In this document: positions 13,797 through 56,475 of the stretch, piece by piece
How the letters are laid out: every line of letters begins with the position of its first letter
Numbering within the stretch: the first letter of the stretch is position 1
Assembly (NCBI GenBank): GCA_026004935.1
Contig: BPKC01000001.1
Coordinates: 1,527,491 to 1,591,490, forward strand
Source of the DNA: Rhodothalassiaceae bacterium
GTDB taxonomy: Bacteria > Pseudomonadota > Alphaproteobacteria > Sphingomonadales > Rhodothalassiaceae
Reading direction: 5' to 3'
DNA: 64,000 bases
Made by a program: the position numbers and the translations under genes
Notes under the pieces: generated by a model
Seen by the model: the letters and a program-made list of their open reading frames with translations, nothing else
Told to the model about the DNA's origin: nothing
The model's database searches: none

Positions 13797-15160
13797 GGTC
13801 GGTCATCGGTCATCGGTCGTCAGTCATCAGCGATCGGCATCGCGCCTGCCGCCCGCCGGCTCTCCTTCTTCGCCACGCGGTGGCACAATGTTCCCTCGTC
13901 ACCCGCCGGCCTGACCGGCGGGTCCAGCGGGCGGCGGGGACAATCGCCGGTGCCGGAGCCGTCACGCATGGAGGCTGGATTCGCCGCTTTCGCGGCGAAT
14001 GACGAAAAAGAGCGTCACCCGCCGGCCCTCTCCCTTCGTCCCCCGCCGGCTTGACCGGCTGGTCCGCTCCCTTTCCCTCGTCACCCGCCGGCTTGACCGG
14101 CGGGTCCAGCGGACGGCGGGGCCAACGCCCTGCGCCGGTGCGGGCGTCACCGCCTCATGGGTTCGCCGGTCAAGCCGGCGAACGACGCGAAGGGGGAGCA
14201 TCACCCGTCGGTGCGCCCCGCGGACGTCGGACGCGAGGTTGACCCGTGGGCTCGTATTCCCATCGTCACCCGCCGGCTTGACCGGCTGGTCCGCTCCCTT
14301 TCCCTCGTCACCCGCCGGCTTGACCGGCGGGTCCAGCCGCCGGCGGGGCCAACGCCCTGCGCCGGTGCGGGCGTCACCGCCTCATGGGTTCGCCGGTCAA
14401 GCCGGCGAACGACGCGAAGGGGGAGCATCACCCGTCGGTGCGCCCCGCGGACGTCGGGCGCGAGGTTGACCCGTGGGCTCGTATTCCCATCGTCACCCGC
14501 CGGCTTGACCGGCTGGTCCGCTCCCTTTCCCTCGTCACCCGCCGGCTTGACCGGCGGGTCCAGCCGCCGGCGGGGCCAACGCCCTGCGCCGGTGCGGGCG
14601 TCACCGCCTCATGGGTTCGCCGGTCAAGCCGGCGAACGACGCGAAGGGGGAGGGACGCCCGTCAGTGCGCCCCGCGGACGTCGGACGCGAGGTTGACCCG
14701 TGGGCTCGTATTCCCATCGTCACCCGCCGGCTTGACCGGCGGGTCCAGCCGACGGCGGGGCGAATTGCCGGCGCCGGAGCGGGCACGCCTGGCGGCTGGA
14801 TTCGCCGCTTTCGCGGCGAATGACGAAAAAGAGCGTCACCCGCCGGCACATTATTCTCTCGTCACCCGCCGGCTTGACCGGCGGGTCCAGCGGACGGCGG
14901 GGCCAACGCCCTGCGCCGGTGCGGGCGTCACCGCCTCATGGGTTCGCCGGTCAAGCCGGCGAACGACGCGGGGGGGGCGCGCCGGCTTGTCTTCCGTGTC
15001 TGAAGACTGATGACTGATGACTGATCACCGATGACCGGCAAGGTTCGCCGTTCGCGCGGGCGCACGGTGTGCGGGAACCGTCCGGCGGCGGGAGTCCCCC
15101 GGCGTCGCGCATGTCGCGAACGGGGGCCGGCGAGCGATGCCGGCGAGACGGCACGGGTGT
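13797..15160. repeat. Palindromic repeat array A (227-bp tandem unit)
   Basis: Non-coding region between convergent iscS and dnaJ. It is packed with palindromes of the form CGTCA-stem-TCCAGC (stem CCGCCGGCTTGACCGGCGG) and their inverted partners (stem TTCGCCGGTCAAGCCGGCGAA or TTCGCCGCTTTCGCGGCGAA). A 227-bp unit is tandemly repeated about three times: the same TTGACCGGC core occurs at 14051, 14278, 14505 and 14732. The edges (13799-13840 and 15000-15040) carry TCATCAG/TGATGACT-type microrepeats. Open frames across it are products of the repeats and have no protein similarity. Confidence 0.9.
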
Positions 15161-23189: not shown

Positions 23190-24386
23190 CGGCCGGCACC
23201 CGTTGTTGGTCACCCGCCTACGCCCCATCACGTCACCCGCCGGCTTGACCGGCGGGTCCAGCGGGAAGCGGGGGCGGCCGCAAGCGCCGGGCTCGTCCTT
23301 GGCGGCGGCTGGATTCGCCGCTTTCGCGGCGAATGACGAAAAAGGAGAGCGTCACCCGCCGGCGTCCTTTCTTCGTCACCGGCCGGCTTGACCGGCGGGT
23401 CCAGCGGAAGGCGGGGACAGCCGCAAGCGCCGGGCTCCTCCTTGGCGGCGGCTGGATTCGCCGCTTTCGCGGCGAATGACGAAAGAAGAAAGCGTCACCC
23501 GCCGGCGTCCTTTCTTCGTCACCCGCCGGCTTGACCGGCGGGTCCAGCGGGAGGCGGGGGCGGCCGCAAGCGCCGGGATTGTCGTCATGGGCGGCTGGAT
23601 TCGCCGCTTTCGCGGCGAATGACGAAAGAAGAAAGCGTCACCCGCCGGCGTCCTTTCTTCGTCACCCGCCGGCTTGACCGGCGGGTCCAGCCGGCGGTGG
23701 AGCCAACCCCGGTACCCGTGCCGCGTTCACCGCCTCATGGGTTCGCCGGTCAAGCCGGCGAACGACGCGTAAAGGGAGGGCATCCGTCGGTGCCTACTCC
23801 CAATCGTCACCCGCCGTCACCCTTTCTTCGTCACCCGCCGGCTTGACCGGCGGGTCCAGCCGGCGGTGGAGCCAACCCCGGTACCCGTGCCGCGTTCACC
23901 GCCTCATGGGTTCGCCGGTCAAGCCGGCGAACGACGAGAGAAAGGAGCGTCACTGCCGGCTTGTCTCCCGTTTCTGATGACTGATGACTGATCACCAACG
24001 ACCGGCCGGGTTCGCCGGTCAAGCCGGCGAACGACGCGTAAAGGGAGGGCATCCGTCGGTGCCTACTCCCAATCGTCACCCGCCGGCTCGACCGGCGGGT
24101 CCAGCCGGCGGTGGAGCCAACCCCGGTACCCGTGCCGCGTTCACCGCCTCATGGGTTCGCCGGTCAAGCCGGCGAACGACGAGAGAAAGGAGCGTCACTG
24201 CCGGCTTGTCTCCCGTTTCTGATGACTGATGACTGATCACCAACGACCGGCCGGGTTCGCCGGTCGAGCCGGCGAACGACGCGGGGGGTGCGCCGGCCTG
24301 TCTTCGGTATCTGAAGACTGGTGACTGATCACCGGCGACCGGCAGCGCTCGCCGGTCAAGCCGGCGAACGACGCGAAAGGAGAGGG
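23190..24386. repeat. Palindromic repeat array B (143-bp and 245-bp units)
   Basis: Between convergent hemW and eno. The palindrome CGTCAC-CGCCGGCTTGACCGGCG-GTCCAGC starts at 23231, 23374, 23517 and 23660, an exact 143-bp period. Each is followed by the inverted partner with stem TTCGCCGCTTTCGCGGCGAA. From about 23830 a second unit of about 245 bp is duplicated; for example GAGCGTCACTGCCGGC occurs at 23945 and 24190. TGATGACTGATGACTGATCA microrepeats occur near 23980 and 24220. No coding potential beyond repeat-derived frames. Confidence 0.9.
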
Positions 24387-33832: not shown

Positions 33833-34980
33833 CCGCCCATCCGTCACCGGCCAACGGCCTTCGCTCATCAAGAGGAGAGGGCGGGCCGGCGCGGCCGCTC
33901 CGCATTCCGATCGCCGAAGACCGGCGACCGACGACCGATCGCTGAACCGTCGCGCGCCCGCTTGACCGGGGAACCCTTCCAGTCGTCGGTCATCGGTCAT
34001 CAGTGTTCAGTTTCATCTTGGGGACGGACGCACGGGCGGTGCCGCCTTCCCCGACGCGTCGTTCGCCGGCTTGACCGGCGAACGCAGCCGGCGGTGGTGA
34101 CCATCCCGGCTTTGGCGGTTGGCCCTGCTGCCCGCTGGATCCGCCGATCAAGTCGGCGGATGACGGAGAAAGCCAGCACGGAGCCGCCGGTCAAGCCGGC
34201 GGGTGACGAAGAGAGAGTGCCGCCGGGTGACGCTCTCTTTGTCGTCATTCGCCGCGAAAGCGGCGAATCCAGCGGCCGCGGGCAACGATCACTTCGCTTG
34301 GGGTTGGCCCCCCATCCGGCTGGACCCGCCGGTCAAGCCGGCGGGTGACGAAGAGAGAGAGTGCCGGCGGGTGACGCTCTCCTTTTCTCGTCATTCGCCG
34401 CGAAAGCGGCGAATCCAGCCGGCGGTGACGGCAGCTCCGACGCTCGCGGTTGGCCCCGCATCCGGCTGGACCCGCCGGTCAAGCCGGCGGGTGACGAAGA
34501 GAGAGAGTGCCGCCGGGTGACGCTCTCTTTCTCGTCATTCGCCGCGAAAGCGGCGAATCCAGCCGGCGGTGACGGCAGCTCCGACGCTCGCGGTTGGCCC
34601 CGCATCCGGCTGGACCCGCCGGTCAAGCCGGCGGGTGACGAAGAGAGAGAGTGCCGCCGGGTGACGCTCTCTTTCTCGTCATTCGCCGCGAAAGCGGCGA
34701 ATCCAGCCGGCGGTGACGGCAGCTCCGACGCTCGCGGTTGGCCCCGCATCCGGCTGGACCCGCCGGTCAAGCCGGCGGGTGACGAAGAGAGAGAGTGCCG
34801 CCGGGTGACGCTCTCTTTCTCGTCATTCGCCGCGAAAGCGGCGAATCCAGCCGGCGGTGACGGCAGCTCCGACGCTCGCGGTTGGCCCCGCATCCGGCTG
34901 GACCCGCCGGTCAAGCCGGCGGGTGACGAAGAGAGAGCGCCGGCGAGTGACGAGGAGGAAGGTGCCGACGGGTGACGATG
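33833..34980. repeat. Palindromic repeat array C (144-bp unit)
   Basis: Between pdhB and a co-oriented beta-barrel gene. From 34321 a unit of about 144 bp is repeated; TGGACCCGCCGG starts at 34321, 34467, 34611, 34755 and 34899. Each unit carries one palindrome with stem CCGCCGGTCAAGCCGGCGG and one with stem TTCGCCGCGAAAGCGGCGAA in inverted orientation. The copies are nearly identical, suggesting recent amplification. 33960-34320 holds more diverged versions, including an ATCCGCCGATCAAGTCGGCGGAT stem and GGTCATCGGTCATCAG microrepeats. 33833-33960 shows no gene. Confidence 0.9.
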
Positions 34981-52298: not shown

Positions 52299-52407
52299 CA
52301 CCAAAATCGCAAAAAGATTACGGCGCGCCGACAGGATCCTTCGCACGGCCTGCCGGGGTCCGTCCCCTCCCGGGACACAGGGCGGCTTGGCCGGCAAATC
52401 CTTTTCC

Positions 52408-53790
52408 TCATCAGTCATCGATCATCAGTCATCGGTCATCAGTCATCGGTCATCAGTCATCGGTCAGCGGTGATCGGTTTGATGCTCGTGCAGAACGCAC
52501 GGCGGGTGACGCCCCTCCCTCTGCGTCGTTCGCCGACTTGATCGGCGAACCCAGCCGCCATGCGTGACGTCTTCAACGCTTGGGGTCGCTCGGCTTCCCG
52601 CTGGACCCGCCGGTCAAGCCGGCGGGTGACGAAAACATGGCACCGGCGGGTTACGCTCGCCATCCCGCTCACTGATGACTGACGACGAAGACCGATCACT
52701 GAATCGTCGTTCGCCGACTTGATCGGCGAACCCAGCCGCCATGCGTGGCGCCTCCGACGTCTGTGGCTGCTCGGCTTCCCGCTGGATCCGCCGGTCAAGC
52801 CGGCGGGTGACGAAAACATGGCACCGGCGGGTGACGCTCGCCATCCCGCTCACTGATGACTGACGACTGAAGACCGATCACTGAATCGTCGTTCGCCGAC
52901 TTGATCGGCGAACCCAGCCGCCATGCGTGGCGCCTCCGACGTCTGTGGCTGCTCGGCTTCCCGCTGGACCCGCCGGTCAAGCCGGCGGGTGACGAAAACA
53001 TGGCACCGGCGGGTGACGCTCGCCATCCCGCTCACTGATGACTGACGACGAAGACCGATCACTGAATCGTCGTTCGCCGACTTGATCGGCGAACCCAGCC
53101 GCCATGCGTGGCGCCTCCGACGTCTGTGGCTGCTCGGCTTCCCGCTGGATCCGCCGGTCAAGCCGGCGGGTGACGAAAAAATGGCATCGGCGGATGACGC
53201 TCGCCATCCCGCTCACTGATGACTGACGACTGAAGACCGATCACTGAATCGTCGTTCGCCGGCTCGACCGGCGAACCCGGCTGGCAGGGGGGGGCAACCC
53301 CGGCGGCAATGATTGGCCTCGCCGCCGGCTGGACCCGCCGGTCAAGCCGGCGGGTGACGAGGGAATATTGCGCCAGCGGGTGACGCTCGCCATCCCGGTC
53401 ACTGATGACTGACGACTGGCGACCGATCACTGAATCGTCGTTCGCCGACTTGATCGGCGAACCCAGCCGCCATGCGTGACGTCTTCAACGCTTGGGGTCG
53501 CTCGGCTTCCCGCTGGACCCGCCGGTCAAGCCGGCGGATGACGAAAAATGGCACCGGCGGATGACGCTCGCCATCCCGCTCACTGATGACTGACGACTGA
53601 AGACCGATCAATGAATCGTCGTTCGCCGACTTGATCGGCGAACCCAGCCGCCATGCGTGGCGCCTCCGACGTCTGTGGCTGCTCGGCTTCCCGCTGGATC
53701 CGCCGGTCAAGCCGGCGGATGACGACAGGAAACCGCGGGCGGATGACGAGGGGAGACGGTGCCGGCGGATGGCGAGAAAAGAGCGTACCG
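52408..53790. repeat. Palindromic repeat array D (about 182-bp unit) with 14-bp microrepeats
   Basis: Between ilvD and cfa (both leftward). 52408-52463 holds four copies of a 14-bp unit TCATCAGTCATCGG. From 52524 the palindrome CGTCGTTCGCCGACTTGATC (core stem TTCGCCGACTTGATCGGCGAA) recurs at 52524, 52705, 52887, 53068, 53250, 53436 and 53617, a period of 181-186 bp. Each is followed by the inverted CCGCCGGTCAAGCCGGCGG palindrome and an ACTGATGACTGACGAC motif. The copy at 53250 has a different stem (GGCTCGACC) and spacer, so it was replaced or is older. Confidence 0.9.
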
Positions 53791-55589: not shown

Positions 55590-56475
55590 ATCCGCCACCG
55601 GCTCACGGGTTCGCCGGTCGAGCCGGCGAACGACAATTCAGTGAACGGTTATCGGTCATCAGTCATCAGCGGCCGAGATGGCAAGCGCCACCCGCCGGCA
55701 CATTATTTTTTCGTCGCCCGCCGACTTGCTCGGCGGGTCCGTCTCCTTAACACGTCACCCGTCGGCTTGACCGGCGGGTCCAGCGGCAAGCGGACCCATT
55801 CGCAAGCGCCGGCGCGGTCACGCCTGGCGGCTGGATTCGCCGCATTCGCGGCGAATGACGAGAAAGAGGACGTCACCCGCCGGCTCGACCGGCGGGTTCG
55901 CTTCCTTTCCCTCGTCACCCGCCGGCTTGACCGGCGGGTCCAGCGGGAAGCGAACCAATCCTCGGTACCGGAGTCATCGCGCCTGGCGGCTGGATTCGCC
56001 GCATTCGCGGCGAATGACGAGAAAGGGGACGTCACCCGCCGGCTTGACCGGCGGGTTCGCTTCCTTTCCCTCGTCACCCGCCGGCTTGACCGGCGGGTCC
56101 AGCGGGAAGCGGACCAATCTTCGGTGCCGGAGTCATCGCGCCTGGCGGCTGGATTCGCCGCATTCGCGGCGAATGACGAGAAAGAGGACGTCACCGGCCG
56201 GCATCCTCTCTCTTCGTTACCCGCCGGCACTCTTTCTCCTCGTCACCCGCCGGCTCGACCGGCGGGTCCAGCGGGAAGCGAACCACTCTTCGGTGCCGGG
56301 GTCATCACGCCTGGCGGCTGGATTCGCCGCATTCGCGGCGAATGACGAGAAAGAAGACGTCACCCGCCGGCTCGACCGGCGGGTTCGCTTCCTTTCCCTC
56401 GTCACCCGCCGGCTTGACCGGCGGGTCCAGCGAGCGGCCGCGCCAATCACGGGCGGCGGGATCCCCTGCCATGCG
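55590..56475. repeat. Palindromic repeat array E (159-bp unit)
   Basis: Between convergent bfd and copA. The palindrome CGTCACCCGCCGGCTTGACC (core stem CCGCCGGCTTGACCGGCGG) followed by GTCCAGC recurs at 55913, 56072, 56241 and 56400, mostly a 159-bp period. The inverted partner has stem TTCGCCGCATTCGCGGCGAA, a loop variant (CATT for CTTT) unique to this array. A third palindrome, ending GGCGGGTTCGC instead of GGGTCCAGC, is also amplified. A GGTCATCAGTCATCAG microrepeat lies at about 55652-55672. Confidence 0.9.

Follow-up and report, generated by a model that had tools for sequence, protein, structure and literature searches.

A short direct repeat at positions 52408-52463 of the window (the whole stretch of 64,000 nucleotides analysed here) lies beside arrays of palindromes and raises the question of what it is to them: a free companion, an element that is read by a protein, a former target, or a part of the palindromic elements themselves. 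The sequence-only reading had counted four perfect or near-perfect 14-bp copies, and this count is correct, as TCATCAGTCATCGG occurs exactly at 52422, 52436 and 52450 and with one mismatch at 52408. TRF describes 52408-52478 as a 7- or 14-bp array. Matches to the 14-mer with at most two mismatches number 32 in the window against an expectation of 0.52 (100 shuffles, maximum 3), and the further heptad sites reported earlier (about 13800, 15005, 23980, 24220, 33985, 52670-53600 and 55655) are all among them. In the host genome (2.91 Mb), TCATCRGTCATCRG is found exactly 91 times, whereas the reversed pattern, which served as a control, is found 0 times. A bias towards one replication strand was considered and rejected, with 51 forward and 40 reverse matches and a weak sampled GC skew.

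The repeat is cleanest in the phase TCRGTNA, which is the TCATCAG/TCATCGG of the earlier reading in a shifted phase. The commonest units are TCGGTCA, TCAGTCA, TCAGTGA and TCGGTGA; since our tract finder imposes part of the core, these frequencies are partly built in and are no proof of constraint. Long tracts of other heptad variants were observed at one locus (L069, 1031-1114 and 5768-5886), i.e., a TCTTCGG type and alternating TAATCGG/TGATCGG.

Heptad tracts and CGTC-tagged REPs

Judged by their sequence, the palindromes are members of the super-family of CGTC-tagged REPs. They are built from CGTC, a 9-bp stem (a length demanded by the caller), a loop of 4 or 5 nt in the aligned composites and a tail with the consensus CCAGC. 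Two REP patterns gave 637 and 524 matches in the host genome, and among 39 other genomes only G018 matches the first of them, with two matches. For genome-wide counts we used 39 evenly spaced 20-kb stretches (780 kb, referred to as the sample), in which 257 REPs were called. The first stem pairs of the four main types, taken over 263 REPs of sample and window, comprise 100 AT, 107 AC and 56 GT. Neighbouring REPs up to 250 bp apart were regarded as pairs; the sample holds 53 head-to-head, 66 tail-to-tail, 25 tail-to-head and 25 head-to-tail pairs.

CGTC REPs were described by Di Nocera et al. 2013 (PMC3733652), and our comparison covers the accessible part of that paper. The published elements have the CGTC tag, a 9-bp stem, a loop of about 4-5 nt and a CCA tail, they form heterodimers with conserved spacers in head-to-head pairs, no transposase is dedicated to them, and the mechanism of their spread is left open. 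Tag, stem, loop, CCA tail, heterodimers and conserved head-to-head spacers are common to both sets. In contrast, the published REPs are mostly head-to-head dimers and rarely tail-to-tail, whereas here tail-to-tail pairs are at least as frequent. Their stems start with A-T pairs, while many stems here start with ACCC or GTTC and depart from this typical opening. Finally, some spacers here are heptad tracts, while the words "heptamer" and "heptanucleotide" are absent from the text of PMC3733652 as far as accessible.

In the window, the focal tract comprises 10 units at 52408-52477 (feature 52408-52480, forward strand) and is followed by a type III-like spacer (52481-52523, forward strand), which to the eye is like the type III spacer elsewhere in the genome and leads to the REP head at 52524. 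On the 5' side of the tract there is only a doubtful REP: the faint REP-like DNA at about 52371-52400 scores 14, under the 99% null of 17, and is only a suggestion. The array that starts at 52524 (52524-53724, 14 REPs called) consists of units of about 181 bp with heptads between successive units, all on the reverse strand. Tracts at 52665-52685 (in the first unit) and 53028-53048 are each followed by a 2-bp deletion; those at 52850-52884, 53213-53247 and 53399-53433 are of type I with the REP head 2 bp away; and the one at 53580-53607, also of type I, has a degenerate first unit and the REP head 9 bp away. Another array (55712-56426, 12 REPs called) is accompanied by a forward tract at 55638-55672, which adjoins a REP with the altered tag GACA. 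The array at 13897-14968 (15 called) has a tract at either edge: on the left, 13799-13840 (forward) starts 2 bp past the stop codon of a class-V aminotransferase, and on the right, 14997-15031 (reverse) points back into the array, its own 5' flank being REP-like. Tracts of type II, i.e., linked to a REP tail, lie on the reverse strand at 23971-23991, 24216-24236 and 24308-24328 within the array at 23231-24373 (14 called). At 33909-34928 (14 called), a reverse tract (33904-33938) and a type III-like forward tract (33986-34013) form an inverted pair around a degenerate REP.

The claim that heptads travel with the palindrome arrays holds genome-wide. The sample holds 22 tracts with a length of 21 bp or more (16 clusters); every one of them has a REP no farther than 300 bp away, and for 20 the distance is at most 100 bp. 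As tracts and REPs are both intergenic, the intergenic background near REPs was measured as well: according to rough gene calls, a REP is no farther than 300 bp away for 16% of the intergenic bases, and among the 266 intergenic regions with a length of 100 bp or more, 26 contain a REP. One Markov-shuffled copy of the sample yielded no heptad tract. A looser count (14-mers with at most two mismatches) gave 44 tracts. A CGTC hairpin lies within 300 bp for 25 of them (4.4 expected) and within 100 bp for 21 (2.1 expected); the remaining 19 are single 14-mers farther off. How common the heptads are away from the palindromes depends on the word chosen. TCATCGG is about equally common there (1.2-fold density near REPs), while TCATCAG is enriched 6.4-fold near REPs and TCAGTCA, the tandem phase, 72-fold. 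The values of TCATCGG and TCATCAG as single words thus indicate that the tandem form is what matters.

Geometry and descent of the composites

The geometry was studied on 99 tracts with distinct surroundings, where copies identical over 60 nt on each side had been dropped. These tracts were drawn from loci chosen by their heptads, from the sample and from the window, and further places exist in the genome. Every one of the 99 lies within 300 bp of a CGTC hairpin, and the arrangement is directional. Read along the TCRGTNA strand, a hairpin is found within 25 bp on the 5' side in 61 tracts and on the 3' side in 2. Distances to the 5' hairpin fall into a few classes, with 33 tracts at 2 bp, 12 at 11 bp, 10 at 9 bp, 5 at 18 bp and 1 at 20 bp. 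An alignment-based test agrees, placing REP-like DNA directly 5' of 75 tracts and directly 3' of 5. On the 3' side, 74 tracts are followed by a hairpin at 100 bp or less, which in 70 of these cases faces the tract head-first.

The common unit along this strand is a REP head, a REP tail or a gene boundary, then 3 to 17 heptads, then a spacer, then the CGTC head of the next REP. The heptads are often offset by 2 bp from a REP head or by 11 bp from a REP tail, and the spacer before the next head measures mostly 26-99 bp and is common to several loci. The heptads are a polar part of REP composites and not a free companion. BIMEs of enterobacteria are likewise mosaics of REPs and fixed spacer motifs, but REP type and spacer motifs probably differ from those found here.

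Through their spacers, the distinct composites with a close REP on both sides (30 of type I, 16 of type II/III) can be aligned and are thus of common descent. Heptad stretches of 26 bp were measured in three type III composites, and one of 54 bp, longer by four units, in another.

The distribution over REP types is uneven. Among distinct REPs of sample and window, heptads accompany 12 of 52 heads with GTTCG stems against 2 of 140 with ACCCG or ATCCG, and 4 of 42 tails against 0 of 126, with ATTCG types left out of these counts. Heptads thus belong mainly to one REP subfamily, the one with GTTCG stems. By orientation, they are held by 9 of the 53 head-to-head and 4 of the 25 head-to-tail pairs of the sample, and by none of the 66 tail-to-tail and 25 tail-to-head pairs.

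The earlier statement that the heptads are not explained by the stems is mostly right, with an exception that concerns five places. There, a single REP (one of them degenerate) is flanked on both sides by heptads in inverted orientation, 40-58 bp apart. One of these places (L080:1430-1560), folded as DNA, forms a 16-bp heptad stem beneath the REP hairpin (-35.7 kcal/mol, z = -6.2).

Gene boundaries and heptads in other genomes

REP-like DNA on the 5' side is absent from 24 of the 99 tracts. In 15 of these, a same-strand stop codon (ORF of at least 150 aa) lies within 60 bp of the tract start. The other nine comprise three with a shorter ORF, two with stops 84 and 114 bp away, and four where no ORF was found, one of which starts 9 bp past tRNA-His. 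The stop codon stands in the phase of the heptads in 9 of 14 cases (P = 2.5e-5, a second tract behind the same stop being excluded), in a test that was conceived after the distances had been seen; variants give 8 of 13 without one negative distance (P = 1.1e-4) and 9 of 15 with the second tract included (P = 5.4e-5). At 13799, the stop codon is not in phase with the heptads. With a second gene caller (like the first, a rough script), same-strand stops were found at 12 tracts and opposite-strand gene starts at 6 of 18 on the 5' side, and genes on the 3' side of 3 tracts; at L044, what is a stop for the first caller is an opposite-strand start for the second. Enrichment between convergent genes was also considered and discarded, as it is not significant (16 loci, P = 0.22).

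Outside the host, heptads occur without the hairpins. The four-unit heptad pattern is present in 3 of 398 genomes of the phylum, host included. In G001, a draft of the same genus and the nearest genome, heptad tracts without a CGTC hairpin within 300 bp are found, some near contig ends, and tracts without such a hairpin also occur in G005 from the family and G012 from the order. In total, we examined 16 tracts at twelve loci from G001, G005, G012, G241, G249 and three named genomes. No CGTC-tagged hairpin with a perfect stem of at least 8 bp was found within 300 bp of any of these 16 tracts, while 6 of them have a same-strand stop codon within 15 bp of their start or overlapping it. Three stretches of the named collection, from a Verrucomicrobiales MAG, an Alphaproteobacteria MAG and Marinobacter zhanjiangensis, carry GACG together with heptads and no CGTC hairpin beside them.

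Two contigs of G001 deserve a remark. L125 (contig C334), 8206-8237, is a heptad tract without a nearby CGTC hairpin, located between two blocks lying 1.4 Mb apart in the host. L123 (contig C291), 1-110, starts inside a CGTC REP; G001 REP counts are thus unreliable, 0 matches to one REP pattern are no proof of absence, and assemblies such as this draft may undercount CGTC REPs. As a direct empty site for 52408, G001 was rejected, as it shows a synteny break there: homology to the window extends up to about 52320 and is followed by another gene, presumably leuD, while the cfa match is on a different contig (52320-53834 compared with C109 and C13).

Viral contigs are a further source, with at least 120 heptad-bearing stretches. 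The first 80 of these loci contain 131 heptad matches, none of which has a CGTC hairpin at 150 bp or less. Where a tract has a neighbouring gene on each side, the one on the 5' side is usually the closer (81 of 116 tracts, P = 2.3e-5, with related contigs not fully removed). Genes within 30 bp number 75 on the 5' side, with 46 same-strand stops and 29 opposite-strand starts, and 37 on the 3' side; a weak phase with the stop codon is seen in 9 of 39 non-negative distances (P = 0.095). The gene boundary is thus the general rule, while phase with the stop codon characterises, so far, the present genome. Three loci on contigs filed as viral (L168, L174 and L198) carry 5-8 matches to the four-unit pattern per about 9-11 kb, some of them within one tract.

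Heptamer repeats as such are known; the comparison again covers the accessible parts of the papers. The Xanthomonas GGGANTN repeats (PMC4692102) consist of heterogeneous 7-bp units, are mostly intergenic, often occur as convergent pairs and lie nearer to their 5' neighbouring ORF, at 28 nt on average. Our edge tracts resemble them in 5'-ORF proximity and convergent pairs, but most tracts here adjoin REPs (75 of 99), the unit is TCRGTNA instead of a G-rich one, and no REP composite appears in that text as accessible. TAACTGA heptamers were reported from Beggiatoaceae, cyanobacteria and Bacteroidetes (MacGregor 2015, PMC4679880), and TAACTGA read on the other strand gives TCAGTTA, which TCRGTNA includes. 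In the BOGUAY genome most of them stand shortly before a start codon, and TGACTGA is not repeated there, according to the same source. In contrast, the units here are mixed, mainly TCGGTCA and TCAGTCA, 75 of 99 tracts lie beside REP-like DNA, and the edge tracts lie mostly beside same-strand stops and in some cases beside opposite-strand starts. TCRGTNA heptads as CGTC REP spacers were not reported in the literature searched, which was text only and included few subscription journals, and the word "heptamer" is absent from the accessible part of the RepRanger paper (PMC12306157). CGTC REPs and heptamer repeats are each already published, and for their combination no report was found in these sources.

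Origin and possible roles of the heptads

Weighing these observations, we lean towards the heptads being a module that forms edges and spacers in composite CGTC-REP elements, a structural or passenger component and not a binding site that the REPs need. The heptads would have begun as an independent class of intergenic microsatellites starting at gene boundaries; they are taken as independent because relatives and viral contigs carry them without CGTC hairpins nearby. They may later have been captured, mainly by one REP lineage with GTTCG stems. Whatever moves CGTC REPs would then have spread copies of whole composites through the genome and also produced tandem duplicates of them, while the number of heptads may change in 7-bp steps by slipped-strand copying. 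An edge module with variable copy number, preferred direction and repeatable junctions would offer a testable handle on the spread of CGTC REPs. Several findings stand against it. Zero copying events or empty sites were seen, and the length difference comes from four composites. The core is met again in unrelated genomes, a recurrence that would not be expected from plain slippage, with the finder imposing part of that core. A clean link to stop codons is contradicted by opposite-strand starts, 6 of 18 here and 29 of 75 in viral contigs, and these cases slightly weaken the module reading.

We regard it as unlikely that TCRGTNA tracts beside REPs are instead a recognition element, read by a protein that binds DNA or RNA or by the machinery behind REP movement. 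The spacing of 2 bp to the REP head in 33 of 99 tracts would suit such a reader, and so would the recurrence of one core, free at a single position, at numerous unlinked sites and in distant bacteria, although the searches themselves required this core. Fixed spacing is equally expected from the common descent of the composites, and REPs are mostly without heptads, as 156 of 169 neighbouring pairs in the sample lack them. The second recognition element that the sequence-only reading had proposed would have to be reconciled with heptads in just 13 of these 169 pairs.

It was also proposed that the heptads are a former target, i.e., that the tracts are insertion sites of REP composites. Heptads without nearby CGTC hairpins in G001 (genus), G005 (family) and G012 (order), and also outside these groups, are in agreement with this part of the proposal, as are tracts at array edges adjoining genes. 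The inverted heptads at the five two-sided places are not, since insertion into a tract would leave one direction, and neither are the 3' spacers common to several composites. In its simple form the reading fits poorly, and we give it a low probability.

We are just as doubtful about an action as RNA, by which the heptads would link a stop codon to the following REP hairpins at the 3' end of an mRNA. The 15 of 24 tracts without REP-like 5' flank that lie behind a same-strand stop codon are compatible with such a linker. One singly flanked composite, folded as DNA, also has its heptads mostly unpaired in the centroid, while in its minimum-energy structure they are partly paired (z = -2.0). REP-like DNA on the 5' side of 75 of the 99 tracts speaks against the linker, and so does the lack of any match to Rfam families in the window.

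One 7-bp core is found repeatedly in distant bacteria, oriented in a similar way towards the neighbouring genes, and random slippage by itself offers no obvious account of this. As a bolder extension of the module reading, TCRGTNA could be a widespread polar microsatellite that has its start at gene boundaries, often at a stop codon, and extends outward through something more specific than random slippage, e.g., 3'-end addition that is templated or primed; the end at the gene boundary would, in this genome, also be the joining end of mobile CGTC-REP composites. We hold this to be rather improbable. If true, a gene-boundary end serving as joining end would explain how CGTC REPs spread without a transposase of their own.

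As regards enzymes that might move the arrays, the profiles PF01797 (Y1, IS200/RAYT) and PF01548 (IS110) gave zero matches in the host genome. One reverse transcriptase was considered and set aside as array mover, being a single RVT_1 match with no link to the arrays shown. It is encoded by an ORF of 340 aa with a YADD motif (C1:1060040-1060600 of the host genome; L256:1219-2241), and by its sequence it looks retron-like.
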